From: an uncultured Flavobacteriales bacterium | Lineage (GTDB): Bacteria > Bacteroidota > Bacteroidia > UBA10329 | Direction of reading: 5' to 3' | DNA length: 36,810 nucleotides | NCBI GenBank assembly: GCA_937900875.1 | Contig: CALCGD010000152.1 | Coordinates: 1 to 36,810, forward strand | Shown: piece by piece, positions 8,778 through 36,791 of the stretch | How positions within the stretch are numbered: position 1 is the first letter of the stretch | How the letters are laid out: the number at the start of each line of letters is the position of its first letter | Position numbers and translations under genes: made by a program | The notes under the pieces: model-generated | Seen by the model: the letters and a program-made list of their open reading frames with translations, nothing else | Told to the model about the DNA's origin: nothing | The model's database searches: none

Positions 8778-8827
8778 AGACTAGTGTTTGTTTGGAAAAC
8801 TAGATGTCTAATGATAGCGAATTCCAC

Positions 8828-8864
8828 AAACAGCCGATTCTCAATGTTAGAGAAACGGCTGTTT
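8828..8864 (-). terminator. Strong hairpin terminator after the M43 protease gene
   Basis: AAACAGCCG (8828-8836) pairs perfectly with CGGCTGTTT (8856-8864). Inside, TTCTC (8838-8842) pairs with GAGAA (8850-8854) around a 7-base loop, with one A-A mismatch between the stems. Read on the minus strand, the stem ends in GCTGTTTG, giving a short U-rich tail. It lies 60 bases past the M43 stop and 50 bases before the vWA gene start, so it separates two same-strand genes. Confidence 0.7.
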
Positions 8865-8924
8865 ACGATTAAATAGTATGCGATGAATTATCCGAAAACT
8901 CCAACAAGAGTAATAGATGGCGTA

Positions 8925-11003: not shown

Positions 11004-11241
11004 TTGTTTGGTTCAATTTCAATAGGTAAACGATAGAATTTACTCGATTGTTTCGCGAAGATAAAAGGAGAAAGAGGTAAAATCAGCCGCCAGTTGACAA
11101 ACTAAGAGAATTGGAAAGACAAAGAACAAGGCAATTGTTTCGGTACCACACTTTTGACGAATGTCAGTTTATGAAGTGATTGCCCTCACTAAATAAGGGG
11201 GCTGTTGAATCGTTCTTTGAAATGAACTTCAGGCTAGCCGT

Positions 11242-12054
11242 ATGCAAAACATTCTAATTCCCACAGACTTTTCACTAAACGCATTAAGAGCTGCGGAGTA
11301 CGCGATAACCATTTTTGGCAACTCGGCTAATTACACGCTCGTAAATTGCTACGAGGTACCGCATTCTGGCGCCACCATGCTAATTTCTATTGCAGATATT
11401 TTAGAGAAAGATTCGTTACAGCTACTTGCTTCCGAACGAGAAAGGCTTATTGGTATGTATGCAGCTTTGGGTTTAAGAATCGAGGTTAAATCCATAATGG
11501 GCTCTCCTGCAGTGGCTGTGAGGAAGATTGCAACTGAAAACGATTTGGTAGTTATGGGAACAAAGGGCGCAACAGGACTAAAAGAAGTTTTTGTAGGCAG
11601 CGTGGCTTCCAACGTATTAGAAAATGTTCCATGCCCGGTAATTGCTATTCCGGAGATTGCGGCAAACGTTAAACCTGCCAAAATTCTATTTGCGGCAGAT
11701 GATAAATGTTTGTCTGAAGGAGAATTACCCGAAAGATTGGTTGGTCTTGCTAAGTTTTTTGAGGCCGAGGTTCTTATCTTAAATGTGGTGCCCAAAGGTG
11801 AAATTTCTCATGTAGGAAACAGCGCTGAAAATTCACGTAAGCCTACTAATGCGTTCGAAAATGTTAAGCATAGTTTTCATTTTATCGAAGATGAAGAAGT
11901 AAATCATGGTATTGAGGAGTTCATCAAAAACAATCAGGTGGATATGCTTGGAATGATTACAAGGAGAGATGATTTGTTCTCTAGATTGTTCGGGACTAGC
12001 AACACAAAAAGTATGATGATGCATACGAATGTTCCCCTTGTAGCATTTCATTAA
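11242..12054 (+). CDS. Universal stress protein, two Usp domains
   Basis: 270 residues, the size of two fused UspA domains. The first half begins MQNILIPTDFS and ends with VVMGTKGATG...GSVASNV..CPVIAIPE, the ATP-binding G-2x-G-9x-G(S) layout. The second half begins KILFAADD but ends with GMITRRDDLFSRLFG...PLVAFH, with the glycine motif degraded, so only the first domain looks nucleotide-competent. It is cytosolic with no signal. It lies 17 bases upstream of a paralogue on the same strand. Confidence 0.9.
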   Translation: MQNILIPTDFSLNALRAAEYAITIFGNSANYTLVNCYEVPHSGATMLISIADILEKDSLQLLASERERLIGMYAALGLRIEVKSIMGSPAVAVRKIATENDLVVMGTKGATGLKEVFVGSVASNVLENVPCPVIAIPEIAANVKPAKILFAADDKCLSEGELPERLVGLAKFFEAEVLILNVVPKGEISHVGNSAENSRKPTNAFENVKHSFHFIEDEEVNHGIEEFIKNNQVDMLGMITRRDDLFSRLFGTSNTKSMMMHTNVPLVAFH

Positions 12055-19576: not shown

Positions 19577-22500
19577 ATGGCCAGTAAATCGCGCACCATC
19601 TTCAAGAAAATTTTCAAATGGCTCGGCATTGTTTTGCTGAGCCTTTTCGTGTTAATTTTTCTGTTGATTCTCGCTTTGCGAACCCCATGGGCTCAGCAGT
19701 ACATTACAAACAAGGCCATTTCGTATGTCTCTGAGAAAACGCACACTCGTATTGAACTACAAAAACTGTTCATCACATTCCGTGGCGATATTCAGTTAGA
19801 AGGTATTTATGTAGAGGACCAACTGAAGGACACCTTGCTTTTTGTTGGCGATTTGGAGGCTGGTGTGGCCTTTTTGCCCCTGATTGATGGCAACATCAAC
19901 ATAAGCCGAATCAATTGGAATGGCCTTGTGGCCAACGTAAACCGTAATCAGGATAGCGCCTTCAATTTCGATTTTCTCATTGATGCCTTTGCTAGCAATG
20001 CAGAGGAGGACACGGTAGCTGAGGCTGATTCTCCCTTGCCAAAAATTGCAATCGGTCCTGTGCATTTTTCAAGCTTTAAGTTGCACTATCGTGATGAGAT
20101 TCTAGGGTTAGACGCCAAGCTTGATTTAGGAAAGTTGAGCTTAACTACGGATGAAATCGACCTGAACACATTAGCTATTAAATTGGATGAGCTTGCGCTA
20201 GAAAACGTAACACTAGATGCAACGAAATGGTTAGAAACTGCCGCTTCTGAAGAGGATACAACCCGGTCGCAACTACCCTTCATCTCTTGGAATAACATCA
20301 ATTTGAAAAACGTCAAATTGAGTTATCGTTCCCCGGATGATAAACTTGTTGTTGGCACCGTATTGGGCGAACTCGCCATTTCAAATTCAGAGATAGACCT
20401 TCAAAAACAAGCCGTCTTTGTAAATGAATTGGCGTTGAAAAACACTGTTGCATTTGCTCAGCTTCCAGCTTCAGAACCGAAGGATACAACAGCTGTTCCT
20501 GAGCCTTTCGCTTGGCCAAATTGGAAACTGAAATTGAATAAATTGAAGTTGGTGGACAATGCGATAGATTTGAATGTTGGAGGCGCATTCGAAACCCCAA
20601 ACGAGTTCAATCCAAGCAATATGCGAATCAATGGATTGCAGCTTCTGGTGGAGGATGTAGAGTTCATCCACAATACAGCGAAGCTTGATGTGAAGCACTT
20701 GGCACTCAAAGAGAAATCGGGTTTTGTTCTGAACCAACTTGGCCTAAAGGTCGAATTGAATAATGACCAATTGATTGTATGGAATTTGAACCTGCAAACA
20801 CCCTTTAATCAACTTGGCGCAAACGTTTCTGTGGATTATAAATCGATTGATAGTTTGATTCAAAATCCCCTATCCTCAAGTTTTAATCTTGATTTGACTC
20901 AAGCCAACCTTTCTATTCAGGACGCTTACTATTTCGCTCCCAATTTGAAGGATGATTCTCTGCTTCAAGACATCGTTGACTATCCGCTAAAACTGAGCGG
21001 AATTGTTTCGGGAAGAATGGACGAGATTACAATCAGAAACTTTAAGGCAATTGGGCTTCGCTCCACCCAATTGAGTTTAGATGGAACTATTCGCGGTTTA
21101 CCAGATACGGGCGCTATCTCGGTTGATATTCCGAATCTGAAGCTATCCCTCACTAAAAAAGACCTCGAAATCTTCATCAAGGAAAAGGAGAAAACGGCTT
21201 CCATTCCTGATAATATGCGCTTGACGGCAAGTTTGAAGGGAGGTGTAAAGGACCTGACGACCAAACTCGATCTTCAAACAGAGAAAGGCAACATCGGTCT
21301 TTCCGCGAACCTCAAAAACCTATTCGGAATTCCTTCTGCTAAGGGAAAACTGCAACTAACTAACATTGATGTTTCTGCTTTGGCTTCGGTTGAAGAATTG
21401 GCTACCGTTTCGCTTACGCTAGATTTTGACGCAACTGGAAACGCGCTCGACAATCTAATAGCCAATCTAGACTTTGCCTTTCAACAATTGAATTTCAAGC
21501 AGTATGATTATTCAGACTTAAAACTGAATGTTGCTGCAGACAAACAAAAGGCAAATGTTACGGCAGAGTTACATGACGAAAACCTCGATTTCGACCTTCA
21601 GTTAGAGGCCCTGCTAGACACGATTAAACCAGCCGCAAATCTGTTTTTGAATCTTAGAGGAGTGAATCTTTTTGCGCTTGGTGTTAGCAGTGAAGATGTA
21701 CGGTTAGGAGGAGATTTGAAGGCTTCTTACAGCGGACTGCCCTCTGATTTTCAAAGTACGCTTGGGATAAAAGATGCCATTTTGGTAAAGGAGGGAGAGG
21801 TATATCGCCTGAAACCTTTAACCGCAAAGCTGGATAATTCTCCAAAAAGCACTTTTCTAGCGCTTAACTCTGAGATTATTAACGGTAATCTCTCAGCAAA
21901 TACCTCAATCGACTCAATTGTTGGTTCGCTCACTAATTACGTGAAACGACTGGCAAGCACTGATTCCTTGCACCACGGAATTATGGACGATTCATTGGAT
22001 GTGACGGCACATTTCACGATAAACAATTCGCTATTGTTAACCGAAGCATTGCTGCCTGATTTAACGCGGTTGGATTCTATCCACCTTGATCTGGAATTCC
22101 ATCCATCACAGAATAAACTCGACCTTAATCTCATTGCGCCAAAAACTGTATATGCTGGAATTACCCTTGATAGCCTTGGGCTTTTTGCCACGGCAAATGG
22201 CGATCATTTGAATGGAAAATTGGCCTTCCAAAAACTGAAAGGAGGGCCAATTGATATCAATCGAACTACAGTTGATTTTGGATTGATTGATAAACTCGCC
22301 AATGTAAAGCTGGCGATTGCCGATTCGTTGGGAGGAAAGCTTGCATCTATCGGAACAATCATCGATTTGACTACTCAGAATACCCTCGTTAGCCTCATTC
22401 CGAATGATTTTATTCTTAATAGTGAGCAATGGAACATTCCTGCCGAAAATCAAATCTCATTCACAGACAAAGGAGTCATTTTTCGTTCTACGGATTTCTC

Positions 22501-24580
22501 AAATGCAGCTCAGCGCATACGGTTGGAAAACCTGAAAAGCGGCAATCCTTATGGGATGAAAGTGAATTTCGAGGGATTTGAATTAGCGTCACTCACAAGC
22601 TTTCTAAACGCTAACGATAGTTTGATTAGTGGCGAATTGAACGGTACCCTTCGACTTCTAAATCTCAATACACATCCTGGAATTGAAGCGGATATTAAGC
22701 TGAACCAGTTGGCTGTATTGGGATTGGACATGGGGCAATTGAAGCTTCTTGCCAATACAAAAGACAAGGACAAATACAACCTTAATTTGACCGTAAAAGG
22801 CGAAGCGATTGACCTGGAAGTCAATGGTTCGTTGATTTCCGAAGAAGAAATGTCGTTGGACTTGAAGGCTGATCTGCATCGCTTGGATGTAAAACTGATT
22901 GAGGGTTTTGCTGGAGGAGAGTTACAGAAGACCAGCGGAAGCATTCTAGCGCACACATCGGTTAAGGGATTGCTCAACGATATTCGTTACGAAGGCTCAG
23001 TTGCGTTTAATCAGGCGGCTTTTACCGTAACGCAGTTAAACACTCAATTCAGCCTGCCAAATGATAGGGTAACCATCGATAATGATGGTCTTGTTTTTAA
23101 GGCGTTCAATATCGTTGATGGAAACGGAAACCCAATTCAAATTGACGGGAAGATTGATACGCGAAACATGTTTGACCCTTCGTTTGATTTACGTGTTGTG
23201 GCCAATAATTTCCAACCGCTCAATTCTACAAGAGATGATAACGATTTGTTCTACGGAAAAGCATTTTTTGATGCTGATATTAAGTTAGGAGGAAAGGTAA
23301 GCCTACCTAAAATCAATGCGCAGACAAAACTGCTAAAGGGAACCGACATCACTTTTATTGTCCCCGAATCTCAAGCGGATATTGAAGAGCGCAAAGGACT
23401 TGTGACGTTTGCCAATATGAAGGATACGTTGAATGTAATTCTTGCCTCTGATAAACAGGTTGAAGAGTTGTTTGGGTTTAAGGGAGCTGATATAGTTGGA
23501 TATCTAGAAATTGACCGATCTACCAAGTTTCAAATTGTAATTGACGAACGTTCGGGAGATAAGATTCAAATTCAAGGCGAGGCGAAGTTGAACGCAGAAG
23601 TAACGCCAAATGGCATCGTCACACTTTCTGGAAATTACGAGGTAGAAAGCGGCTTTTACTACCTGAATTTCTACGGACTTGCCAAGCGCAAATTCGAACT
23701 TGTTTCGGGTAGTCGTATTGTTTGGAGTGGCGACCCATTGGCAGGCGAGCTTGACCTGAAAGCGAAGTACAGTCTCAAAACCTCAGCAAGTGATTTAATG
23801 ACGGATCAGCTTGCCCAAAGTGATGCGACCACGCTCACGAAATACAAGCAGGCATTGCCATTTGAAGTGATGCTCAACATCAATGGAGAATTGCTGAAGC
23901 CCGAAATCTTCTTCGGAATTGACATGCCGCCAAATGCCCGACAGGCGTTAGATGGAAACGTTTACAAGCGAGTTCGTCAGCTAAATGGCAATGCTTCTGA
24001 ACTTGACAAGCAGGTATTCTCACTTATCGTTCTGAATCGTTTTTTACCACAAAGTTTTGACCAAATGGGTGGTTCTGGGTCGCAAAGCATGGCGCGTTCT
24101 AGTGCCAGTAAATTACTTACAGGACAATTGAACGCACTGAGTTCAAAGTATTTGAAAGGGGTTGAGCTCAACTTTGACCTTAACAGTTACACGGACTACC
24201 AGAGTGGCACCGCAGACGATAAAACGCAGCTGGATGTGAACATTCGCAAGGCGTTGTTCAATGATAGAGTGGTGGTTCAAGTTGGCGGCCAAGTAGATAT
24301 TGAAGGGAAGAACAAAAGCTATGGGGCTGACGATATTTTGGGAGACATCAGCCTCGAATATCTTATCACAAAAGAAGGCGATTATCGTCTTAAAGCGTTT
24401 AGGAAGAATGAGTTTCAAGACTTGGTGCAAGGACAAGTGGTCGTGATGGGGCTTTCGGTGCTTTTCAATAAGAGTTTTAATGATTGGAAAGAGTTGTTGA
24501 GAAGCAAACCAAAACAAGAAGAACCAGTAGAATTTGAAGACGAACCAGAGATAGAAACGGAAGGTAGCAAAAGCGAATGA
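19577..24580 (+). CDS. tamB: TamB-like translocation and assembly module protein (DUF490)
   Basis: 1667 residues. An N-terminal membrane anchor (WLGIVLLSLFVLIFLLILAL) is followed by AsmA-like HTRIELQKLFITFRGDIQLEGIYVED, then over a thousand residues of short repetitive beta-strand sequence. The C-terminal TamB domain (DUF490) includes VTPNGIVTLSGNYEVESGFYYLNFYGL and VVVQVGGQVDIEGKN. TamB spans the periplasm as a hydrophobic groove and works with an Omp85 partner in outer-membrane protein or lipid delivery. The Omp85 gene follows with a 4-base overlap, supporting a paired function. Confidence 0.92.
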   Translation: MASKSRTIFKKIFKWLGIVLLSLFVLIFLLILALRTPWAQQYITNKAISYVSEKTHTRIELQKLFITFRGDIQLEGIYVEDQLKDTLLFVGDLEAGVAFLPLIDGNINISRINWNGLVANVNRNQDSAFNFDFLIDAFASNAEEDTVAEADSPLPKIAIGPVHFSSFKLHYRDEILGLDAKLDLGKLSLTTDEIDLNTLAIKLDELALENVTLDATKWLETAASEEDTTRSQLPFISWNNINLKNVKLSYRSPDDKLVVGTVLGELAISNSEIDLQKQAVFVNELALKNTVAFAQLPASEPKDTTAVPEPFAWPNWKLKLNKLKLVDNAIDLNVGGAFETPNEFNPSNMRINGLQLLVEDVEFIHNTAKLDVKHLALKEKSGFVLNQLGLKVELNNDQLIVWNLNLQTPFNQLGANVSVDYKSIDSLIQNPLSSSFNLDLTQANLSIQDAYYFAPNLKDDSLLQDIVDYPLKLSGIVSGRMDEITIRNFKAIGLRSTQLSLDGTIRGLPDTGAISVDIPNLKLSLTKKDLEIFIKEKEKTASIPDNMRLTASLKGGVKDLTTKLDLQTEKGNIGLSANLKNLFGIPSAKGKLQLTNIDVSALASVEELATVSLTLDFDATGNALDNLIANLDFAFQQLNFKQYDYSDLKLNVAADKQKANVTAELHDENLDFDLQLEALLDTIKPAANLFLNLRGVNLFALGVSSEDVRLGGDLKASYSGLPSDFQSTLGIKDAILVKEGEVYRLKPLTAKLDNSPKSTFLALNSEIINGNLSANTSIDSIVGSLTNYVKRLASTDSLHHGIMDDSLDVTAHFTINNSLLLTEALLPDLTRLDSIHLDLEFHPSQNKLDLNLIAPKTVYAGITLDSLGLFATANGDHLNGKLAFQKLKGGPIDINRTTVDFGLIDKLANVKLAIADSLGGKLASIGTIIDLTTQNTLVSLIPNDFILNSEQWNIPAENQISFTDKGVIFRSTDFSNAAQRIRLENLKSGNPYGMKVNFEGFELASLTSFLNANDSLISGELNGTLRLLNLNTHPGIEADIKLNQLAVLGLDMGQLKLLANTKDKDKYNLNLTVKGEAIDLEVNGSLISEEEMSLDLKADLHRLDVKLIEGFAGGELQKTSGSILAHTSVKGLLNDIRYEGSVAFNQAAFTVTQLNTQFSLPNDRVTIDNDGLVFKAFNIVDGNGNPIQIDGKIDTRNMFDPSFDLRVVANNFQPLNSTRDDNDLFYGKAFFDADIKLGGKVSLPKINAQTKLLKGTDITFIVPESQADIEERKGLVTFANMKDTLNVILASDKQVEELFGFKGADIVGYLEIDRSTKFQIVIDERSGDKIQIQGEAKLNAEVTPNGIVTLSGNYEVESGFYYLNFYGLAKRKFELVSGSRIVWSGDPLAGELDLKAKYSLKTSASDLMTDQLAQSDATTLTKYKQALPFEVMLNINGELLKPEIFFGIDMPPNARQALDGNVYKRVRQLNGNASELDKQVFSLIVLNRFLPQSFDQMGGSGSQSMARSSASKLLTGQLNALSSKYLKGVELNFDLNSYTDYQSGTADDKTQLDVNIRKALFNDRVVVQVGGQVDIEGKNKSYGADDILGDISLEYLITKEGDYRLKAFRKNEFQDLVQGQVVVMGLSVLFNKSFNDWKELLRSKPKQEEPVEFEDEPEIETEGSKSE

Positions 24581-26850
24581 TGAGATGGAAATCACATATC
24601 ATTTTGGCGTTAGTGTTGCCTGCATTGCTGCTTGCTTCGTGCAACACATTCAAGCATATTCCCGAAGGAGAAAAACTTTATACGGGCGCTAAACTGAAGC
24701 TGAAAGGTAAGGGAAGTAAGACGTTACTGTATGATTTAGAAGATGTCATTTCCCCTAAGCCAAACAAGGTCATTTTAGGTGCAAGATTTGGATTGTGGGT
24801 CCATTTTCAAGCACAAAAGAAGATTGGTAAAAAGCTGTTTAAGAAGCTTGATACACGCTATGGCGAGGAGCCCGTTTATCTCAGTCAGGTAAACGCCATT
24901 AAGAATGAGAAGATCCTTGCAAATAGATTGGAAAATCGAGGCTATTTCGGGTCAAGTATAAGCGCAACGGTTAAGGAAAAAACAAGAACAGGCTCGATGG
25001 TTTATTCGGTCAATATTCCTGAACCATATCTAGTTCAGACCTACACTTATTTGCCCGATTCCACGGCTATCGATTCTTTACAACGTGTGCTCAAAGATTC
25101 CTTAATAAAGAAAGGTTCACAGTTCGATACAGAGTTGATGAAGGAAGAACGCACACGTATTGATGCGTACCTGAAAAACAAAGGGTTTTACCATTTTAAC
25201 TCAGATTATCTGAGCTTCATTTCAGACACAAATCAGTATAAAGACAAGCGTCTGGATTTGTATCTCAAAGTGAAAGACAACACGCCTGCCGATGCGGTTG
25301 ACATTTATCGTATCAATGAAATTTCGATTTTTCCAGATTACAATATCAATCAGTCGGCTACATCCACAACCGATAGTTCAGCACTTGAGGACATCGTTTT
25401 TTGGCAGGGGAAACGGAAGTTCAAGCCCAAGCATTTGGTTGATTATATCGGCATAAGAAAAGGAGATTTATTCAGCCAAAAACAACGGATTGCTACTAGC
25501 CGGAAGTTGTCTTCAATGGGTAATTTTCAGTATGTGAGTATTCGCTATACCACTGACACGCTTGCTGGAGATTCAGTAGGTCTGCTCAATGCATCTATGC
25601 AGCTTACGCCATACAAGAAACATGGGTTGCAAGTGGAATTGCAAGGCGTGACCAAGTCGAGCAATTTTGCAGGTCCAGCCGTGATTGCTTCTTACACGAA
25701 TAAGAACATCTTCCATGGGGGCGAAATCCTGGAAATTGCTGGCGATTTCAGCTACGAATTTCAGATTGCTAAAGGCTCTACAAAAGGACTCGGTTCCTTT
25801 CAAGTAAAACTTTCCACGGGACTAACTTTTCCAAGAGTATGGCCAATCAAGATTAGAAGCAAAGGCGGCTATTCTGTGCCAAAAACAAAACTCGGCATAA
25901 ACGGAAGCATGATAAGCCGTTTGCAGTACTATGATCTAGCGTCATTTCAGTTTCAATACGGTTTTCAATGGAACTCAAACAAGTACATCGCACATGATTT
26001 AACACCAATCGATTTGGTGTATTCTAATCTATTTAGAACCACGACTGAATTCGATTCAATCCTGTCGAATAATGCGTTTTTGGCACAGAGTTTTGCAGAC
26101 CAGTTCATTCCGGGGCTTACCTACACATTCCTCTTCAATCAGTTGATGGATAAGGATCGAAAGCACCGCTTCTTTTTTAGGCTTACTGCGGATATTGCTG
26201 GCAACATCATTGGCGGAATTCAAACAGCTGCTAGCGCCAAAAAGGAGATTGCAGGGTTGCCGTATGCGCAATACGCCAAGGCGGATATTGATGTGCGCCA
26301 CTACACGAAAGTTGGGCGCGAAAGCCAATGGATTAATCGTTTGTTTATCGGAGGAAGTATTCCCTACGGCAATTCATCCACCTTGCCGTATGTCAAACAG
26401 TATTTTTCCGGAGGACCAAATAGCATTCGGGCATTTCGGGTCCGCTCTCTTGGACCAGGAAGTTATGATGCTTCAGGTTCAGGTGTATCGTTTTTTGATC
26501 AATCGGGAGATATCAAATTGGAATTCAATACGGAGTTCCGCCATCCAATCTACAGTTTGCTGAAAGGCGCGGTTTTCTTCGATGCTGGTAATGTTTGGCT
26601 CGTTAATGAGAACTCCGCCTTGCCTGGCGGGAAATTTACCAAAGATTGGTACCGTCAAATTGCAATGGGATTTGGGTACGGATTTCGTTTAGATCTTCAA
26701 TTTATAGTTGTACGATTTGATTTTGCAACGCCATTACGAACCGCAAACAACACATCTTCCGAAAAATGGACCGATGCCGTAGGCGTATGGCGTGGTGCTG
26801 GTTTTAGCGAAAATGTGGTAGTCAATTTCTCTATCGGGTATCCGTTCTAA
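24577..26850 (+). CDS. tamL: TamA-like Omp85 outer-membrane lipoprotein (TamL type)
   Basis: 757 residues. It begins with a lipoprotein signal ending in LLASCN (Cys22 from the first ATG), unusual for Omp85 proteins elsewhere but typical of the lipidated TamA homologue of Bacteroidota. The following 300 residues form POTRA-like repeats. The C-terminal half is a 16-strand-type barrel with VKQYFSGGPNSIRAFRVRSLGPG (lid-lock VRGF-like motif) and ends in phenylalanine (SIGYPF). It starts at ATG 24577, overlapping the tamB stop (ATGATGA). The symbol follows the Bacteroidota name and is my assignment. Confidence 0.85.
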   Translation: MMRWKSHIILALVLPALLLASCNTFKHIPEGEKLYTGAKLKLKGKGSKTLLYDLEDVISPKPNKVILGARFGLWVHFQAQKKIGKKLFKKLDTRYGEEPVYLSQVNAIKNEKILANRLENRGYFGSSISATVKEKTRTGSMVYSVNIPEPYLVQTYTYLPDSTAIDSLQRVLKDSLIKKGSQFDTELMKEERTRIDAYLKNKGFYHFNSDYLSFISDTNQYKDKRLDLYLKVKDNTPADAVDIYRINEISIFPDYNINQSATSTTDSSALEDIVFWQGKRKFKPKHLVDYIGIRKGDLFSQKQRIATSRKLSSMGNFQYVSIRYTTDTLAGDSVGLLNASMQLTPYKKHGLQVELQGVTKSSNFAGPAVIASYTNKNIFHGGEILEIAGDFSYEFQIAKGSTKGLGSFQVKLSTGLTFPRVWPIKIRSKGGYSVPKTKLGINGSMISRLQYYDLASFQFQYGFQWNSNKYIAHDLTPIDLVYSNLFRTTTEFDSILSNNAFLAQSFADQFIPGLTYTFLFNQLMDKDRKHRFFFRLTADIAGNIIGGIQTAASAKKEIAGLPYAQYAKADIDVRHYTKVGRESQWINRLFIGGSIPYGNSSTLPYVKQYFSGGPNSIRAFRVRSLGPGSYDASGSGVSFFDQSGDIKLEFNTEFRHPIYSLLKGAVFFDAGNVWLVNENSALPGGKFTKDWYRQIAMGFGYGFRLDLQFIVVRFDFATPLRTANNTSSEKWTDAVGVWRGAGFSENVVVNFSIGYPF

Positions 26851-26852
26851 TT

Positions 26853-28577
26853 TTAGTCCGAATCATTAAGAGTCTTCTCAGCTTTTTTGTAAGCTGGCGT
26901 AAGTTCTTGAACCCAAGAATTATCATACTCTGCAAGGACTCCCGATTGGTCCGCTTCTTCCTTGGTAATTTTCAAGTCAACATACTTGGCCATTACCTTG
27001 TAAGTCTTTGGCTTTAGGTTCTTGATTACTAGGAGAGCGGCATTCATTCCAGATTTAACAGCAATTGGAACGCCACCGCCTAATTCGGCCCAATGGCCAC
27101 CAAGCCATAGGTTTTTTACAGCCGTTTTATGTCCCGCAATTTTAGCTTGCATGTTGGCTTTTCCTGGACGAGCACCCATTAAGGAGCCATCACGGTTTCC
27201 GGTATAACGCCAGTGCGTAATTGGCGTGGCGATATCGCAGTATTCAATATGCGAACGAATTTCCTTGCCTAGTTTTTTCTCCACCCGGTCAATCAAAACA
27301 TCAGCAAACTCTTGTTTGAACTTCTTGTAAGCTTCTCCACGTTTCAGGTTTCCATTTTCGTCAACCTCCGTTTTCCACTTGTCATCTTGGTCAAAGCTGG
27401 CGTAGCAATAAATGGTCATCGTTCCTTTTCCTGCTGGCGCGAGAGAAGGGTCACGAAATGAAGGCGCTAGAATGCTTATTCCTGCTTTATGAGGGTCGCC
27501 TAGGTTGTGTTCGGTACGTTTTACATCATCTCGAACAATGAAAAGCATGGCATCATCCAATCCAAAATCCTCTACTGGGCAATCAATTCCTAAAGAAATT
27601 GTTACAGCTGAACTGTACAGTTGAGCATTGTGAAGTTTGTCTTTCACCTCTTTCGGAATGGCAGTTTCGGGAAGCATCTTTTCGTAAAGCGTTTCAACAT
27701 CACAGGCGGCTATAATATGCTTGGCTTTTACGCTAAACTTTTCGCCTTTCCGATTAAGTTGTATTCCGACAGCTTGACCATTTTCTAGTTCAACTTTCTC
27801 TACACGACATTGGTAATAGACATCGTTGCCCATTTTCTCAACCGCGTAATCCAACCATTCTGGGAAAACCTGACTTCCGCCTTTCGGTGGACTTTGATAA
27901 TCGCCATAATACGCCCAACCTATCGGAACTAAGCACGAAAGAAGCTCCTCCTCTGAGCCAAAAATTTTCAACATTTCGGGATCTTTGAAATAGCGTTGAA
28001 GCCCTTTTACCGTCCCTTCTGGACCAGTGAAACGAATGTGTTTTAGGAAGACGAGAGCAAATTTCAATCGGGTCATGTTGAAAACCATCATCTCCAATAG
28101 ACTCATGGTTTCTAATGATCGCGTGAAGGCTGGTAAGCTGTCAAACGCACTTCCAATTTGCTTTGCATCCTTGAAAAAGCGTTCAATCCCTTTTTTCTCG
28201 TGCGGAAAAAGTTTGATGAATTCTTCCTTTAAATCATCTGGCTTATCAGTAAGGAGGTAATCGTAATTATCGCCTTGGTAGCGTTTAATATTTGGCTGAG
28301 AAAGGGCTGTTGGATGATCGGTTCCAATAAAATCGAAAATGCGAGTAACAAGACCTTTTGGTCCGCATTGATTGAGCCAATGAATGGCGCTGTCAAATCG
28401 GAATTCCTTTCTCTTGAATCCAGCTAAGTAACCACCTGGTCGTGTATCCATTTCAAAAACACCAACAGAAAGTCCCGCTCGGCTGAGAAGAGCAGCAGAG
28501 GTTAATCCACTAATTCCCGCACCAATTACGATTACATCGTACTCAGGTTTGATAACCTTTTTTCGAACGAAACTCAA
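26853..28577 (-). CDS. CrtI/CrtISO-like FAD-dependent oxidoreductase
   Basis: 574 residues. Rossmann FAD motif VIVIGAGISGLTSAALLSRAG, then the phytoene-desaturase/carotenoid-isomerase pattern FEMDTRPGGYLAGFKRKEFRFDSAIHWL and the C-terminal NLWLGGHWAELGGGVPIAVKSGMNAA. The start is TTG at 28577, overlapping the upstream gene's TGA as TTGA; no in-frame ATG precedes the FAD motif. The family desaturates, isomerises or saturates conjugated polyenes. As the last gene of the pigment operon it probably acts on the aryl polyene chain, but the exact reaction is inference. It converges on tamL with only 2 bases between stops. Confidence 0.85.
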   Translation of the reverse strand: MSFVRKKVIKPEYDVIVIGAGISGLTSAALLSRAGLSVGVFEMDTRPGGYLAGFKRKEFRFDSAIHWLNQCGPKGLVTRIFDFIGTDHPTALSQPNIKRYQGDNYDYLLTDKPDDLKEEFIKLFPHEKKGIERFFKDAKQIGSAFDSLPAFTRSLETMSLLEMMVFNMTRLKFALVFLKHIRFTGPEGTVKGLQRYFKDPEMLKIFGSEEELLSCLVPIGWAYYGDYQSPPKGGSQVFPEWLDYAVEKMGNDVYYQCRVEKVELENGQAVGIQLNRKGEKFSVKAKHIIAACDVETLYEKMLPETAIPKEVKDKLHNAQLYSSAVTISLGIDCPVEDFGLDDAMLFIVRDDVKRTEHNLGDPHKAGISILAPSFRDPSLAPAGKGTMTIYCYASFDQDDKWKTEVDENGNLKRGEAYKKFKQEFADVLIDRVEKKLGKEIRSHIEYCDIATPITHWRYTGNRDGSLMGARPGKANMQAKIAGHKTAVKNLWLGGHWAELGGGVPIAVKSGMNAALLVIKNLKPKTYKVMAKYVDLKITKEEADQSGVLAEYDNSWVQELTPAYKKAEKTLNDSD

Positions 28578-29818
28578 TTTTTCATTTTTTCAATATCAAC
28601 CACTTGCGCCAAAGTGTTTATGATGGTTTTGTGCTTACGCACGAATGGATTTGTCTTATCCCAAACGTAGCCAGCAAGCACGGAAGTAAGCTGTTTTTTC
28701 ATCAACTGATTGATGTTTACATGGAAGAAAATCTTCTGCAAATCGCCCGAGTACCATTCTTTCACGTACGTTCTGAATACATCAATGCCGTATTCCAAAT
28801 GTTCAACGTATTCTTTTTGCCAATCTATCTTCTCTCCATTGAGTTCTCGTTCCACCAATTTTGCCGCTGTCAATCCACTTTCGGTTGCAAACGCAACTCC
28901 TGATGAAAAAACGGGGTCTAAGAATTCGGTTGTGTTTCCTGTAAGTACAAATCGGTCTCCAAAGAATTTTTCGGAAGAACGCATGTAATCCTTATGAACC
29001 TTTGGTTCCCAGAGATATTCGCGGTCTTTAAAACGTTCTTTGAACTTAATTGAACGATCAAACATGTTATTGAAAGCAGTAGTGACATCTGCACTTTCTT
29101 CTGCAAACTCTGAGAAATACTTTTTGTTCCCTACAAAACCTAGAGATGTATTTCCATTATGAAATGGAATTACCCATAGCCACAAATCCGTCTCTAAAAT
29201 CTCGAAAGAAATCTGAGTTGGATTTTCCCACTTATCTCTGGTGTCATCGTTCAGCTTAACATATGTAGCCATGTTGCTTGTTGGCGATATGTGCAAAGGA
29301 ATGTCAAGCATTTTGGTGAGCACACCGCCATAACCGCTACTGTCAATCACATATTTGCATCTGTATTCTTCTACGCCTTTCTGCGTGTCCACTTCAAATT
29401 TTACGCACTCTTTTGAGCCAAAATCGATCGATTTGAGCGTGCTCAAATACTTAATGTTTACACCTTTTTTCTCAGCTGCATCTGCTAAAGCTTTGTCAAA
29501 TTGGCGTCTAGGAACTTGCCAAGTCCAGGTCCAACCCTCTGTGAAATTATCGTCAAAAGAAATACGGAATTCCTTACCGTCTTTAATGAATAGTGCGCCT
29601 TCCTTCACCACAAAGTTTTGCTCTTCGAGCGCAGGCAGAAGACCAACTTCTTCAAAATGTGCCATACTTAACGGAAGCAGGCTTTCGCCAATTACGTAGC
29701 GCGGGAAACTTGTTTTCTCAACCACCAATACACTGTAGCCTTGATTTACCAAATAAGTAGATGCGACCGTGCCTGATGGACCAGCGCCAATTACCAATAC
29801 ATCAACTTCTTTTATCAT
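28574..29818 (-). CDS. FAD-dependent halogenase-like monooxygenase
   Basis: 414 residues. The FAD motif VLVIGAGPSGTVASTYLVNQG is followed by FPRYVIGESLLP, and W213-L-W-V-I-P218 matches the WxWxIP motif known from flavin-dependent halogenases. The end of the FAD-binding half has GNTTEFLDPVFSSGVAFATESG. It could be a halogenase or a related geranylgeranyl-reductase-like enzyme; the motif favours the halogenase side, and phenol-ring chlorination is a plausible job in a flexirubin cluster. It overlaps its neighbours on both sides by 4 bases (ATGA and TTGA), so it is strongly coupled. Confidence 0.8.
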   Translation of the reverse strand: MIKEVDVLVIGAGPSGTVASTYLVNQGYSVLVVEKTSFPRYVIGESLLPLSMAHFEEVGLLPALEEQNFVVKEGALFIKDGKEFRISFDDNFTEGWTWTWQVPRRQFDKALADAAEKKGVNIKYLSTLKSIDFGSKECVKFEVDTQKGVEEYRCKYVIDSSGYGGVLTKMLDIPLHISPTSNMATYVKLNDDTRDKWENPTQISFEILETDLWLWVIPFHNGNTSLGFVGNKKYFSEFAEESADVTTAFNNMFDRSIKFKERFKDREYLWEPKVHKDYMRSSEKFFGDRFVLTGNTTEFLDPVFSSGVAFATESGLTAAKLVERELNGEKIDWQKEYVEHLEYGIDVFRTYVKEWYSGDLQKIFFHVNINQLMKKQLTSVLAGYVWDKTNPFVRKHKTIINTLAQVVDIEKMKN

Positions 29819-31326
29819 ACCTGCTTTATTCTTTCAAGTAGTTTTTTCTTATCCAAAAACTGGCTACAAGTAACTACAGAGCTAATGGTAACGCCAAAAA
29901 TACCGTGCAAGTTTAAATACTGACCAGTTAGCCAAAGGTTAGAGATTTTAGTCTTCGGAGAGATGAAGTTTGTCAGTCCTTTCCTATAATCTTTTTCTGT
30001 TCCGTACATGTTGCCATCATCGCTGCCAATGTAGTCTCTAAAAGTAAGTGGAGTGGAAGCGTGTACGCTTTGAATATAATTTCTGATTTCGGGGAAACGC
30101 TTTTCTACCGCTTTTAGCACTTGCTCAGTCTTTTCTGACTTAAACTGTTCGTAATCCGAAGGACGTTCGCTCGGAGAGACAATGGAATTGTGGCTGTCTT
30201 TCCATTGTTCCACTTCGTCAAACCGCATGTATGTCATAATTGAAATTCCATCGGCATATTCTTCCGATTTAGAAGTAGCTGGTGTGCTCAGCATAAACTG
30301 TAAGGGCCATTCATCTTCCCCGTAATCGGGCTTTATCCATACATCATTTGTAGTATGATGATAAATGTTGTGGTTGAGGTATGAGAACGAGTTCGGCTTA
30401 CAAACGATATGAACGGTGAAACAGGAAAGCGTGTTTGAAACGCGCTGTAATCGATTGAAATACGATGGCTTAAAATGCTCCTTACCAATGACGTTTAAGA
30501 GAATCTTCGGCTGAATATTAGAGATGAAATTTTTACCACGATAAGTTGAACCGTCTGTAGTTGTAACTGAACTCAATTTGTCTTCTGATAAGTCAAACGC
30601 AATTACTTGCTTTCTTCGAAGTATGTCTCCGCCCTTTTCATGAATTGACTTTGCCAATTCTCGCGCAATTTGAGAACCACCATCAACGCAACGATACGCG
30701 CTCTGTATATAGCCATTCGTGACTAAAGCATGGATGTATAACGGACATTTATCTGCCGAACCAGCGTAAAGCAAATTAGACCCTGCGAGAACAGCGCGAA
30801 GCTTTTCATCGTCTGTAATTTGCTCAATGAATTGCTTGGCAGAAAGTTCTAGAATTGAATCGTCAGTATGGTCGAACTCTGATAATTCTAGCTGATCGAG
30901 CGGGAAAGTCTTTACTATTTCTTGTATGGTTTTTGAATACTTCCGAATGGCATTTACTTCCGCTGGAAAGTCGGCAATTAAGGTGTTTTCGAAATCGGTC
31001 CAAGAACTGGCGTGGTGAAATTTTGAACCATCGTCAAAGCTGATTTGGTCAAAGTTCTTCTCCATTTTTCGCCATTTCACAGATTCGGTCAGCCCGAAAT
31101 ATTTGAAGTAGGAGTGAAGCGCTTGACCTTTATCCAAGGCGGGTAGATAATGCACTCCTGTGTCAAAAACAGTTTTATCTCGACTGAAAACCTGCAATGA
31201 ACCGCCTAGTTGTTGGTTTTTCTCCAAAACGCAGACGCTATGGCCGTGGTCTGCAAGAATATAGGCGCATTGTAAACCGCCTAATCCGCTACCAATAATT
31301 ACAAAGTCGTACACCTTCTCAGCCAT
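29815..31326 (-). CDS. Phytoene dehydrogenase-like FAD-dependent oxidoreductase
   Basis: 503 residues from the ATG at 31326 (MAEKVYDFVIIGSGLGGLQC), which places the FAD motif near the N-terminus. The frame extends to a TTG at 31362 directly after the stop of the upstream gene, which would add 12 residues. Further CrtI-like features are VLEKNQQLGGSLQVFSRDKTVFDTGVHYLP, and at the C-terminus NLWLTGQYLNLHGIFGVTISSVVTC. It is a paralogue-type relative of the protein at 26853-28577, but diverged. It probably acts on a polyene or ring intermediate of the pigment pathway. Confidence 0.85.
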   Translation of the reverse strand: MAEKVYDFVIIGSGLGGLQCAYILADHGHSVCVLEKNQQLGGSLQVFSRDKTVFDTGVHYLPALDKGQALHSYFKYFGLTESVKWRKMEKNFDQISFDDGSKFHHASSWTDFENTLIADFPAEVNAIRKYSKTIQEIVKTFPLDQLELSEFDHTDDSILELSAKQFIEQITDDEKLRAVLAGSNLLYAGSADKCPLYIHALVTNGYIQSAYRCVDGGSQIARELAKSIHEKGGDILRRKQVIAFDLSEDKLSSVTTTDGSTYRGKNFISNIQPKILLNVIGKEHFKPSYFNRLQRVSNTLSCFTVHIVCKPNSFSYLNHNIYHHTTNDVWIKPDYGEDEWPLQFMLSTPATSKSEEYADGISIMTYMRFDEVEQWKDSHNSIVSPSERPSDYEQFKSEKTEQVLKAVEKRFPEIRNYIQSVHASTPLTFRDYIGSDDGNMYGTEKDYRKGLTNFISPKTKISNLWLTGQYLNLHGIFGVTISSVVTCSQFLDKKKLLERIKQV

Positions 31327-31362
31327 TCGGCTGCGAAGTTCGCATTCGTAATAAAACTTCAA

Positions 31363-34300
31363 CTACGCTGATTTACGCAAGATGTAGGTGACGTTAGAGC
31401 TTGATTTGTTCTCAAGTCGTTCCAAATCCAATTCGAATTTCTTCGCGAACGAAACCACTCGCTCCTCTGGTAGGAACTCTAAATCGTGTTCAGTCTTATT
31501 AAAACCAAAGATTTTGGTGCTGAATACTTCCGTCATTTTAGTTACTCCGTGCTTTTTCTTCTCATCTTCAATTCCATCTCTGATAATGATGGTTCCGCAT
31601 GGCAGAAGCTTTTCCGCACACCTTTCTAATAATGCTTTTTGGTCAGCGGCAGGGAAATAATGAAGTACATCTTTGATGATGAAGCAGACAGCTTCTTCAG
31701 GTTCAAATTTGGTTAAATCGGCTTGTTCGAATTCAATATTACCAACTGCGTAGTGCGTGTTTGAGGCAAGTTGAATTTTCTCCTGGTCATAATCCAAACC
31801 GATTACGTGCCTATCGTATGATTGCATGGCAAGCATGTGAGTGAGGTACCCGTACCCACAACCTAAATCATAGACCTTTCCTTCTCGCGGAACCCGCGAA
31901 ATGATTTCATCAAAGTTCTTTTCAAGAATCAACTTGATGCGGACATACCATTCGAGAACGGGGCCTTTGTAAGAGTAAAGTCTCTGAACTTTATCATGGA
32001 AATAATCGCCATCCTCCTGTTCAATTCTGATTTTTTCAAACTCAGATTTGAAGTGTTTTGAAATTGCCTTCGTGCGTTCCCGATATCCAGTACCAAACTC
32101 CGTTGAATCGGGAGTAATACGGTCAAGATATTTGAGTGTAACTCTTCCGTATTGCACCGAGAAGTCCCCCTTTCTTAATACATGATGCAGACCATGAATT
32201 ACAACGGGAAGAATATCTAGGTTTAGCTGCTCGGCCAGGTAGAAAGCTCCTTTTTTGAACCTTCCAATGCGCCCGTCTGTGGTTCGTGTTCCTTCTGGGA
32301 AAACGAGAATTGAGTATCCTTCATCAACTTTCTTTTTGATTTTCTCAAGATCCCACGAAGTTTCGTCTTTCGCATGAATGTATTCGGCAAATCGAATGAA
32401 AGCCCCGAAAAGCGGTGAATTCCAAACCCAGTCATTGGTTACCAGGAGCAATTTATTGCTGCTTCCAATCAGCATCATTAGATCTACGAACGAAGCATGG
32501 TTTGCAATCAATATAGCTGGTTTGTTCAAAGGGTCTTTGTTCAACCAACGAACCGGAACATGAAACATCGTGCGCCAGTCGGAATCAATCAGCAAACTAA
32601 TGCACGTCATCATTATCCGTTGTTTTCTCCCTTTTGAGATTGGAAGAATCATCACCACGAGAAGAATGGCGGTTAGAATAACACAACCTATTAAGAACCA
32701 ACCGAAGGCTAATCCTGCCCGCAGAAAATCGCGCAATTCAAGAGGGGAGAAGCCACGTTTTCTTCTGCTGTCAATCAGAATATCGTAAAGCAGGGGCTGA
32801 AGAGTTAGTGAAGCAATTACCACGCAGACCATACCTGTAACCGATAGTACCGCAATAGAATGTAAAGCTGGATGTTTTGAGAAGATGAGCACGCCCGTTC
32901 CAATAATGGTTGTTATAGCGGAAAGAATAATGGAACTTCGGTACGATTTGAGCTTGTCAACTCCGTATTTGTATCGACTCAAAATACCGTCAGAAACAAA
33001 GATGGAATAGTCGTCTCCCAATCCGAAAATGAAGGTGGTAACCACCACGTTTATCATGTTGAATTTAATCTCGAATAATCCGCAAATTCCAAGAATCCAA
33101 ACCCAACTTACCGCCATTGGTAAGAAGGTGACTAAGGCCAGCTCCAATCTCCCGTATGTGAGAAGGAGCACCACAAATACAAGTAGAGAAGAGAGAATTA
33201 GAATGAAGTTTAGGTCTTCGCTAACCGTGTTGACTAGATCATGAGCCAGCGAGCTCCTTGCAACTGTTTCTAGCCCATCAATTTTACCAACCTTTTCTGT
33301 GAATGACTCTCTGTTATCCTTAAGTAAATTGACCGTTGATACTACATTGAATCCATCATCTCCTTTAAAAATGAACTCGCTGTAAACAGGGTCATTCAAC
33401 AAAAAGTCTTGATAAAAGGATTCATCAGCAACTACATATTCCCGAAATAAATGGTCGTATACCTGAAGGAATTGAGATTGAAACCCAAGTTCAGCTCCGG
33501 TTGAAATCAATTCGGATTTCAACCCTTGTCCTAATTCAGTTACGTGCTTGTTCCAAGCAGAAACGCTCTGTTTTATTTGATTTGGCGTAAGCACAACATC
33601 CGTCAAAATGGTTGAGCGAATACTTGTGTCGTTAAGTGCTGTTTTGAGATTGGAACTTTTGAAAATAGCCTCGCTCAAATTAGAATCTGAAGACAAAACG
33701 AACAGACTTTCTCGGTTGCTATCTCCTACAATAATGTCTTGCGCTTTTTGAAGATGTTCGGGGAAATAATTGATTTGGTTTAAATCGTTTTCAAACTGCA
33801 CCTCGTCCGCATAATTCCACAGAAAAACGGTCGACCCAACCAAGCTTACAAACAGCAAAGCCTTCCATTTAAAAGGGGTAGGCTGAGAAGGTTTGGACTC
33901 TTTTTGAGGTCGGAATTTGGCAAAATGAGCCAAGTGTGGTAGCCCCAGCAGGGCAAAAAATGCCGTTCCTATTAAACTTAGCCCAGCGAAAGTTCCAAAG
34001 TCAGCAAGCACATCTGAACGCAATAAATTGAGACAGAAAAATGCTGCCACAGTTGTAGCGCAGCCCAACAACATTGGCGAACTGATTTCTTTTAATGTGT
34101 CTTCAATAGACCCAGTTTCGCGATAATGGTTGAAGAAATGAAAGCTATAATCAATTGCAATTCCGAGCACAATTGTGCCCACCGCTACCGATATGGCCGA
34201 TATGGATCCTTGCATTACGGTAATAACTGCTAGCGCAAATGTTAGTCCGAAAACAGCAGGCAAAAAGAACAGGATTGGGATTGTAATTCGCCTGAAATAG

Positions 34301-35154
34301 CCAATAAGCAAGAGCAGAATGGACACACCTGCCAGAATGCTAACTAGGCTGGTGTCTGCCTTAATTCGAGTAGCGTTCGCCACAGCAATTACGGGCCCTC
34401 CAAACAGAAGAATGTCTGTTTTTGAATGGGCTGTTTTAATGCTATCAATCGAAGTCTGTAATCCATGAACCAACAGAGAATTCTGCTCGGTTTCGGAAGG
34501 AGGATTGACAGGTTTAATTACCATTAAGAGATATTCTCCGTCAGGTGTAAACGTGTATCCGTCCACAATCTTAAAGGCGTTTCCTTCTTGTAGTTTATTT
34601 AAACGAGAAAGGATTGGAGCACCCAATTGCAAAGGGTCCTTCATCAAAAATTTCTTGGTGCCTAAGCTTTCGTAGCTCCTAAGTCGATTGAGAGTAGAAC
34701 TGAGGCGCGTTGCGATACCGTCATTGGACAAGTCAGTAAATAATGAGTCAACCTCATTGGCGGTAAGAAAATACGGGAGATTACGTAGGTAATTGCCATA
34801 GGCTTCTGCCATATTTGCCGCACCCGCAGAAAATTGAATGGACTTAATTAATCCAGTATCTAATTCGTTGCATTGCTCTAGAATTGTTTCTCCAACCGAA
34901 ACAAGTTCCTCGCTAGATGAGTTCGTTAATGGACCTATAGCAACAATAATATTCCCGGAAATGGAAGAATTACGGTACAGATTATCGTACTTTTTAAACT
35001 CCTCGGTACGCGGAAACGTTTTGGTAATGTCCTCTTCTACGTGCAAATGGCTTGCTTTCCATGCCATTATAACGAATGCCAATGCGAATCCAAATAGCCA
35101 TAACCATTTGAAATTTAGCGTTTTGAGATAAATAAACTGAAGTATCCGACCCAT
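31363..35154 (-). CDS. RND/MMPL exporter fused to PlsC-like acyltransferase and SAM methyltransferase
   Basis: 1263 residues from the ATG at 35154; the open frame goes back to a TTG at 35235 but no signal or homology supports that. The order is: RND exporter with two sets of membrane helices (about 1-800; charged positions D335 in GIAIDYSFHFF and D714-D715 in GLGDDYSIF); LPLAT/PlsC acyltransferase (about 860-1060; H886xxxxD891 in NHASFVD, E954 in FPEGTR); methyltransferase (about 1075-1263; DLGCGYG starting at D1096). It is an inner-membrane protein. Proposed role: methylation and esterification of the pigment coupled to export. First gene of the minus-strand operon. Confidence 0.9.
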   Translation of the reverse strand: MGRILQFIYLKTLNFKWLWLFGFALAFVIMAWKASHLHVEEDITKTFPRTEEFKKYDNLYRNSSISGNIIVAIGPLTNSSSEELVSVGETILEQCNELDTGLIKSIQFSAGAANMAEAYGNYLRNLPYFLTANEVDSLFTDLSNDGIATRLSSTLNRLRSYESLGTKKFLMKDPLQLGAPILSRLNKLQEGNAFKIVDGYTFTPDGEYLLMVIKPVNPPSETEQNSLLVHGLQTSIDSIKTAHSKTDILLFGGPVIAVANATRIKADTSLVSILAGVSILLLLIGYFRRITIPILFFLPAVFGLTFALAVITVMQGSISAISVAVGTIVLGIAIDYSFHFFNHYRETGSIEDTLKEISSPMLLGCATTVAAFFCLNLLRSDVLADFGTFAGLSLIGTAFFALLGLPHLAHFAKFRPQKESKPSQPTPFKWKALLFVSLVGSTVFLWNYADEVQFENDLNQINYFPEHLQKAQDIIVGDSNRESLFVLSSDSNLSEAIFKSSNLKTALNDTSIRSTILTDVVLTPNQIKQSVSAWNKHVTELGQGLKSELISTGAELGFQSQFLQVYDHLFREYVVADESFYQDFLLNDPVYSEFIFKGDDGFNVVSTVNLLKDNRESFTEKVGKIDGLETVARSSLAHDLVNTVSEDLNFILILSSLLVFVVLLLTYGRLELALVTFLPMAVSWVWILGICGLFEIKFNMINVVVTTFIFGLGDDYSIFVSDGILSRYKYGVDKLKSYRSSIILSAITTIIGTGVLIFSKHPALHSIAVLSVTGMVCVVIASLTLQPLLYDILIDSRRKRGFSPLELRDFLRAGLAFGWFLIGCVILTAILLVVMILPISKGRKQRIMMTCISLLIDSDWRTMFHVPVRWLNKDPLNKPAILIANHASFVDLMMLIGSSNKLLLVTNDWVWNSPLFGAFIRFAEYIHAKDETSWDLEKIKKKVDEGYSILVFPEGTRTTDGRIGRFKKGAFYLAEQLNLDILPVVIHGLHHVLRKGDFSVQYGRVTLKYLDRITPDSTEFGTGYRERTKAISKHFKSEFEKIRIEQEDGDYFHDKVQRLYSYKGPVLEWYVRIKLILEKNFDEIISRVPREGKVYDLGCGYGYLTHMLAMQSYDRHVIGLDYDQEKIQLASNTHYAVGNIEFEQADLTKFEPEEAVCFIIKDVLHYFPAADQKALLERCAEKLLPCGTIIIRDGIEDEKKKHGVTKMTEVFSTKIFGFNKTEHDLEFLPEERVVSFAKKFELDLERLENKSSSNVTYILRKSA

Positions 35155-35216: not shown

Positions 35217-36791
35217 TTGAAAAAGGATTACCCAAAAAATTCTAACGTTATAGGACAGACGCTTACACTCGACCAATTCTTCCGCTGTGTTATACAACTG
35301 GAAGCATCACAACCGTCACGACAGCAACGTGCCATGGTTGAAGAGAGTTTTAACTTTCTAAAAGAGTTCTCAAAAGACAAAATTATCTACGGAATTAATA
35401 CTGGATTTGGGCCAATGGCTCAATACCGTATTGAGAACGAAGAGCTTGAGCAACTCCAATACAATTTGGTTCGAAGCCATGCATCCGGTATGGGTGCTGG
35501 TTTGCCTGACCAGTATGTTCGTGCTGTGATGCTCAATCGTCTGAATACACTGGCTTTAGGTGGTTCAGGAATCAGCACACCAGTTATTGACCAACTTGTT
35601 CTGTTTATTGAGAAAGGGATTTACCCATACATACCTGAACACGGAAGCGTTGGCGCTAGTGGCGATTTAGTTCAATTGGCCCATTTGGCGCTCGGATTAA
35701 TAGGAGAAGGTGAGGCGAATTACAAAGGAGAAAACCGAAAGGTTGCAGACATTTTAAAAGAAATTAAAGCTGAACCCATAAAGCTTCAGCTACGCGATGG
35801 ACTTGGGTTGATGAACGGAACTTCTTGCATGAGTGGCATTGGTCTTTTGAACGTTATTTACGCTTCACGTTTGATAAAATGGGCCGTATTAATTGGCGCT
35901 GTAATCAACGAGATTGTTCGTTCTTATGACGACAGTTATTCGGAGTTTTTGAATCGAGCAAAAAAGCACGAAGGACAGCAAAGGGTTGCTGCAGCAATGC
36001 GTAGGTGCCTGGAGACGAGCAAATTGGTACGTAAACGTGAAGATCGTCTGTTCAAGGATATTGATAAGGTTGGAAACGGAAAGCCAATTAAGGAAAAGGT
36101 GCAGGAATACTATTCGTTTAGATGCATTCCGCAGATTATCGGACCAATTTTGGAAACGGTCCAGAATGCCGAGAATGTATTGATTGATGAGGTCAATTCA
36201 ACGAACGATAATCCCGTTGTTGATCTTGAAAACAAGCATGTTTATCATGGCGGAAATTTCCATGGCGATTATGTAGCCTTGGAAATGGATAAAATGAAAA
36301 TTGCCATTACTAAATTGAGCATGCTTTGCGAACGTCAGCTTAATTACCTGATGAATGATAAACTGAACGATATTTTTCCACCGTTTATGAACTTGGGAAA
36401 ACTCGGATACAATTTTGGCGTGCAAGGAATGCAGTTTACTGCAACTTCAACCACGGCAGAAAATCAGACACTTTCTTACCCAATGTCGGTTCATTCCATT
36501 CCGAACAATAACGACAATCAGGATGTAGTGAGCATGGGCACTAATGCCGCCTTGCTAACTAAAAAAGTAATAGACAACACCTTCCAAGTAATGGCCATCG
36601 AATGTGTGGCAATTGCACAAGGCGTTGACAGCTTGGGTTGCAAGTCAAAAATGTCGGTGGCTGGTCAGCGTTTCTATGAAACAGTTCGTAAGCATTTAGC
36701 TACGTTTGAAGATGACCAACCTCGTTCGAAACAATTGGGCGATTTAGCCGAATTTCTTCACGAAAATGATCCGCAAATCGAAATTTTCTAA
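35217..36791 (+). CDS. Aromatic amino acid ammonia-lyase, probably tyrosine ammonia-lyase
   Basis: 524 residues from a TTG at 35217, the only usual start codon ahead of the conserved LTLDQF opening; the first in-frame ATG (35334) would cut off conserved sequence. The MIO cofactor triad is A147-S148-G149 in GSVGASGDLVQL, preceded by GINTGFGPMAQY and followed by NFHGDYVALEMD and QFTATSTTAENQ. The substrate-selectivity pair is S87-H88 (LVRSHASG). I recall the Flavobacterium johnsoniae tyrosine ammonia-lyase having the same RSH pair and blocks such as EKVQEYYSxRCxPQIxGP, so tyrosine to 4-coumarate fits better than histidine degradation. No hut genes are adjacent. Confidence 0.88.
   Translation: MKKDYPKNSNVIGQTLTLDQFFRCVIQLEASQPSRQQRAMVEESFNFLKEFSKDKIIYGINTGFGPMAQYRIENEELEQLQYNLVRSHASGMGAGLPDQYVRAVMLNRLNTLALGGSGISTPVIDQLVLFIEKGIYPYIPEHGSVGASGDLVQLAHLALGLIGEGEANYKGENRKVADILKEIKAEPIKLQLRDGLGLMNGTSCMSGIGLLNVIYASRLIKWAVLIGAVINEIVRSYDDSYSEFLNRAKKHEGQQRVAAAMRRCLETSKLVRKREDRLFKDIDKVGNGKPIKEKVQEYYSFRCIPQIIGPILETVQNAENVLIDEVNSTNDNPVVDLENKHVYHGGNFHGDYVALEMDKMKIAITKLSMLCERQLNYLMNDKLNDIFPPFMNLGKLGYNFGVQGMQFTATSTTAENQTLSYPMSVHSIPNNNDNQDVVSMGTNAALLTKKVIDNTFQVMAIECVAIAQGVDSLGCKSKMSVAGQRFYETVRKHLATFEDDQPRSKQLGDLAEFLHENDPQIEIF

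Follow-up and report, generated by a model that had tools for sequence, protein, structure and literature searches.

Closest described systems

In the aryl-polyene (APE) cluster of Escherichia coli, the RND exporter ApeM, the acyltransferase ApeD and the methyltransferase ApeB are encoded by separate genes. In Chitinophaga, the cluster for the orange pigment flexirubin runs from flxA to flxY, and its flxP-flxU interval in C. pinensis has been assigned an exporter as well as an acyltransferase of the phospholipid/glycerol type; the part of that account which treats this interval predicts the exporter there but does not describe a fusion (PMC3992019).

A fused form was, however, already known to annotators, as a protein of Aureispira anguillae (WP_264793640.1) carries the RefSeq name ‘trifunctional MMPL family transporter/lysophospholipid acyltransferase/class I SAM-dependent methyltransferase’. 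A search of the open literature returned no paper discussing this name or the fusion, and no biochemistry of any fused protein was found in the literature. F. johnsoniae UW101, a genetically tractable producer, has served in work on flexirubin mutants. For the pump half, the nearest solved folds were HpnN (5khn) and MmpL3/4/5, which are exporters of lipids or siderophores with low identity to it (10–16%), with another substrate, and without fused enzymes.

The sequence analysed here, called the window, is a stretch of 36 810 bp which represents the entire contig C152 of a 355-contig, 3.6-Mb genome of Bacteroidota. It contains a gene in which homologues of ApeM and ApeD are joined, unlike in E. 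coli, into one chain together with a methyltransferase (Table 1). The plasmid-borne Aureispira homologue has the identical three-domain order in one chain, with 35.7% identity over 97% of the length, and its gene is followed, as in the window, by a gene for a FAD-dependent oxidoreductase. The next neighbours differ, being C45 and AMP-ligase genes in Aureispira, and a halogenase-like and a second CrtI-like gene in the window.

Table 1. Location of the fusion gene, its domains and the adjoining genes in the window.
Feature	Position	Strand	Basis
Fusion gene, 1263 aa, RND/MMPL pump + PlsC-type acyltransferase + class I SAM methyltransferase (probable FlxU-type flexirubin exporter)	31363..35154	minus	
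RND/MMPL pump, residues 1-800; 12 predicted TM helices, predicted periplasmic loops 35-252 and 450-632	32755..35154	minus	Pfam MMPL x2, model, ApeM-like
Two-helix membrane anchor of the acyltransferase, about residues 806-860	32575..32739	minus	helices H13-42, H47-68 of C-terminal model
PlsC-type acyltransferase, about residues 840-1045; HASFVD (H886, D891), EGTR (E954)	32020..32637	minus	PF01553, 5kym, ApeD-like
Class I SAM methyltransferase, about residues 1060-1263; DLGCGYG at 1096-1102	31366..31977	minus	PF13649, fold, not ApeB-like
Flexirubin tyrosine ammonia-lyase FlxA, divergent from fusion; contig ends 19 bases beyond	35217..36791	plus	NF053541
CrtI-like FAD oxidoreductase, next downstream of fusion, conserved neighbour	29815..31362	minus	
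FAD-dependent halogenase-like protein (CmlS/Trp_halogenase family); other flexirubin loci have homologues	28574..29818	minus	
Second CrtI-like FAD oxidoreductase	26853..28577	minus	

Integrity and distribution of the fusion gene

The reading frame of the fusion gene was open without interruption from 31363 to its upstream limit, a TTG at 35235. This TTG was dropped as the start codon, since the relatives begin at the equivalent of the ATG at 35154 (MGRIL...), which is the conserved start in the same genus. The sequence-only reading, which had placed a single polypeptide with RND pump, acyltransferase and methyltransferase at exactly these coordinates, was thus borne out by the frame and by the Pfam domains, and the residues it had singled out (D335, D714/D715, H886 in HASFVD, E954 in EGTR and D1096 in DLGCG) were all in place.

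In a genome assembly as fragmented as this one, in which the window is one contig out of 355, separate genes could appear fused by frameshift, misassembly or chimera. No hidden frameshift was detected, and relatives were collinear with the fusion along the full length both within the genus (60–79% identity) and in other families (31–37% identity). The best 80 loci from public genomes, all of Bacteroidota by their titles, likewise aligned with it nearly end to end and each contained the fusion, the frame being broken or truncated in draft contigs for three of them (L040, L064 and L082). Because of this collinearity at all three levels a frameshift or chimera was rejected, and with the identical architecture named in RefSeq the probability of an artefact is practically negligible.

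One of the 80 loci, that of Chitinophaga filiformis DSM 527, has the full fusion between a GT2/DUF2062 gene and a CrtI-like gene; flexirubin was first found in this species, according to the published account of the cluster (PMC3992019). From the gene order, we infer the name FlxU for the fusion protein. The fusion had been presented as unusual in comparison with other aryl-polyene loci, which did not hold, as it is the rule in Bacteroidota flexirubin loci. The gene is an ordinary member of a known and named architecture; the observation was correct and its significance overstated.

Association with the flexirubin locus

The divergently adjacent lyase gene scored 799.9 bits against the FlxA model NF053541 (cut-off 700). 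In a sample of 296 Bacteroidota genomes, FlxA was found above the cut-off in 25, and 24 of these had a gene of the fusion family, which occurred in none of the 271 genomes without FlxA; the match spanned both pump and acyltransferase in 23 of the 24, and the remaining one (G171) had only the pump. One genome (G152) was the sole member of the sample with FlxA above cut-off and no fusion-family gene.

The gene order of the window was repeated exactly in a genome of the same genus (G004), and the order PSDA-LolA-DH-GT2/DUF2062-fusion-CrtI-like-C45/AAT-AMP ligase recurred across families. The flexirubin cluster of the window’s own genome is spread over contigs C152, C146 and C344/C125. The aryl-polyene core genes KS, CLF, LolA and GT2 were located on C146, together with a LolB2_flexi match of 51.8 bits, slightly below the cut-off of 60. 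With the divergent FlxA, the conserved synteny and the near-perfect co-occurrence, the assignment of the gene as a membrane-bound export and acyl-transfer protein of a flexirubin locus was upheld.

In one flexirubin locus (L115 of G171, positions 8075-11372) the pump stood alone as a protein of 812 aa, and a Cupin_8 gene replaced the acyltransferase, the methyltransferase and the CrtI-like gene, so that the fusion is not indispensable.

At 26853-31362 on the minus strand, the CmlS/tryptophan-halogenase-like gene lies between the two CrtI-like FAD oxidoreductase genes, and the identical order was seen in a same-genus locus (L123). The halogenase-like gene and the paired CrtI-like genes suggest that the pigment of this organism is chlorinated on the ring and passes through an additional redox reaction. 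Elsewhere in the window, reading of the translation by eye revealed a giant S8-protease-like protein (3-5168, minus strand) which continues into a long series of ‘SYSVTVTDANGC’ (SprB-type) repeats in tandem and runs off the contig end. Likewise by eye, the stretch 19577-26850 on the plus strand was seen to hold a long TamB-like protein (1667 aa) and, directly after it, a BamA/TamA-like outer-membrane protein.

Pump, acyltransferase and membrane topology

Pfam detected MMPL in two stretches of the fusion protein, and the AlphaFold model of residues 1–830 (mean pLDDT 84.6) was a 12-helix RND fold. That the RND pump is complete was borne out by the model, in which twelve helices span the membrane and two loops lie in the periplasm, and by its closest folds. 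Two rows from plasmid records were left out of the alignments behind the structure models. In profile comparisons within a 17-protein set, to which these E-values refer, the pump domain matched ApeM (E-value 4e-38) and the acyltransferase domain matched ApeD (E-value 1.6e-23).

The window protein has both the TM4 residue D335 and the TM10 residue D715. Among 114 aligned rows, some of which repeat one gene, D715 was invariant, and D335 was replaced by Asn in 42 and by Ser in three; with 45 of the 114 rows thus altered, only D715 is a firm signature among the proton-relay residues named earlier. With a variable TM4 Asp and a fixed TM10 D715, many members of the family may couple protons via one relay residue.

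The acyltransferase domain (PF01553, E-value 1.8e-19, residues 902–1013 in 1290-aa numbering) carries the HX4D and EGTR motifs and the PlsC fold with its two-helix anchor. In the AlphaFold model of residues 795–1263 (mean pLDDT 89.5), residues 10–255 of this C-terminal model were superimposed on PlsC 5kym with a Z-score of 24.3 and an rmsd of 3.0 over 238 aligned residues, anchor included. Because the match extends over the two-helix anchor, the thirteenth hydrophobic helix is best read, on the model, as the acyltransferase’s own re-entrant anchor and not as a crossing that places the enzymes in the periplasm. The segments on either side of the anchor, DSRRKRG before and SKGRKQR after, are rich in basic residues, in keeping with a cytosolic location. 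SAM is cytosolic. We infer that the acyltransferase and methyltransferase domains would both lie on the cytosolic side of the membrane, with access to acyl-ACP/CoA and SAM.

The fused methyltransferase

The C-terminal domain was recognized by PF13649 (E-value 3.3e-13), and the Methyltransf_25/31/11 models matched at about residues 1119–1225 in 1290-aa numbering. Both motif I (D.GCG.G) and the Rossmann methyltransferase fold were present, the model resembling many class I methyltransferase folds with Z-scores of about 18–20. Phosphoethanolamine N-methyltransferases, which appeared as PDB sequence matches of the domain, were judged too generic for assigning a substrate.

The sequence-only reading had stated that the three activities are separate genes in other aryl-polyene loci. 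This is true of the pump and the acyltransferase in E. coli. It is misleading for the methyltransferase, since ApeB matches a separate gene here too, and not the fused domain: the ApeB orthologue is a stand-alone gene in both the E. coli APE and the flexirubin loci. The profile of the fused domain reached ApeB with an E-value of only 1.7e-4 (17-protein set, filters off), blastp of the domain against ApeB gave no match, and the best match of ApeB was a separate gene of 357 aa in the flexirubin locus of Persicobacter (48% identity). Chitinophaga, with C. filiformis among its species, likewise has orthologues of the Persicobacter gene inside its fusion loci. The window’s genome itself has two stand-alone ApeB-like genes (L131 and L132, on contigs C344 and C125), each about 48% identical to that of Persicobacter. 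With generic similarity only, and a separate orthologue present at about 48% identity, the fused domain was rejected as an orthologue of ApeB.

Residue D1096 was retained in 101 of the 114 aligned rows, some of which repeat one gene. In ten genomes the SAM motif DxGCGxG was degraded, e.g. to HLGNDYG (H for D1096 and D for G1100), and all of the degenerate copies came from two families (f21 and f49). In these ten genomes H886, E954 and R957 of the acyltransferase were intact, and the degenerate methyltransferase region was still about 160–180 residues long; the two degenerate domains examined gave no Pfam methyltransferase match. The ratio of methyltransferase to RND identity was 1.13 in intact members and 0.74 in degenerate copies, and judged by these identities the degenerate domain is diverging faster than the pump.

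The persistence of 160–180 residues after loss of the SAM motif, and of any Pfam match in the two domains tested, is what would be seen if the domain did not work as an enzyme but were an appendage with a structural or regulatory role. Such a role seems quite improbable, as D1096 is kept in most rows and the domain of intact members shows no less conservation than the pump, a ratio of 1.13 being as expected of a working enzyme.

Of the 19 genomes in which the fused domain is intact, 16 had an orthologue of ApeB (about 44–56% identity to that of Persicobacter), the window’s genome among them, and of the ten with a degenerate domain nine lacked it. The two traits thus tend to go together (16/3 versus 1/9, Fisher p 2e-4, with phylogeny ignored and several of the assemblies incomplete). 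This co-occurrence, and the report that flexirubins differ in ring methylation with methionine supplying the ring methyl (PMC3992019), would fit a fused domain that methylates the ring in the head group of the polyene, doing the work of ApeB inside the export complex. Of the alternatives, this comes nearest to the sequence-only reading, in which the pigment is methylated as it is exported. That assignment is nevertheless unlikely, though somewhat less so than an appendage: a separate ApeB orthologue accompanies most of the intact domains, ApeB itself is best matched by a stand-alone gene, and the association is confounded by phylogeny, every degenerate copy being from the same two families. 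In these families the fusion persists with the SAM motif of its methyltransferase lost.

Tentatively, the fused methyltransferase may instead catalyse a second methylation during the maturation of flexirubin, with either the pigment, the resorcinol or the lipid acceptor as its target; this step would be tied to export and lost in the two families where the ApeB homologue is mostly missing. The same source also records variation of flexirubins in ring chlorination (PMC3992019), and the published variation in both ring features would make a link of the fused methyltransferase to pigment chemistry plausible.

Proposed role of the fusion protein

Taken with its genomic setting, the fusion is probably the standard FlxU-type station through which Bacteroidota flexirubin loci export their pigment across the inner membrane, and in which acyl transfer is followed by extrusion. 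At the inner leaflet, the ApeD-type acyltransferase would take the finished aryl-polyene off its carrier and pass it to an acceptor in the membrane, either dialkylresorcinol or a glycerolipid. The ApeM-type RND half would then extrude the lipid-like pigment, to be taken over by LolA/LolB-like carriers for delivery to the outer membrane. This sequence of events is in line with the export model for the aryl-polyene of E. coli (PMC8253772). The fused methyltransferase would be an additional enzyme that differs from ApeB, the putative ring methylase, and would probably act on the pigment or the acceptor before export; it was inactivated in lineages which presumably do not need its step.

As to the acceptor, the acyltransferase might prepare the polyene for export by joining it to a glycerolipid, with the dialkylresorcinol ester being formed by a C45/AAT-family protein or a ligase. 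The domain is of the PlsC/lysophospholipid type, for ApeD of E. coli a role in coupling the polyene to a lipid anchor has been proposed (PMC8253772), and a C45/AAT homologue belongs to the same gene run in most relatives. This C45/AAT acyltransferase-family neighbour of the relatives, or the ‘ligase-like’ FlxW of the published cluster description (PMC3992019), could instead make the dialkylresorcinol ester. On the other side, flexirubin as isolated is a dialkylresorcinol ester, and a glycerolipid form is not described in the accounts of isolated pigment drawn on here. We hold the glycerolipid route to be a real possibility, though one that falls short of an even chance.

For the export station proposed here, the analysis settles that flexirubin exporters are normally built as this fusion, which is also the near-perfect genomic companion of the FlxA lyase. 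The sole part that merits follow-up is the extra methyltransferase, degraded in two families. Since the domain decays there, the pigment chemistry of those families could reveal what gets methylated, and the presence of two unrelated methyltransferases per flexirubin locus is a testable point.
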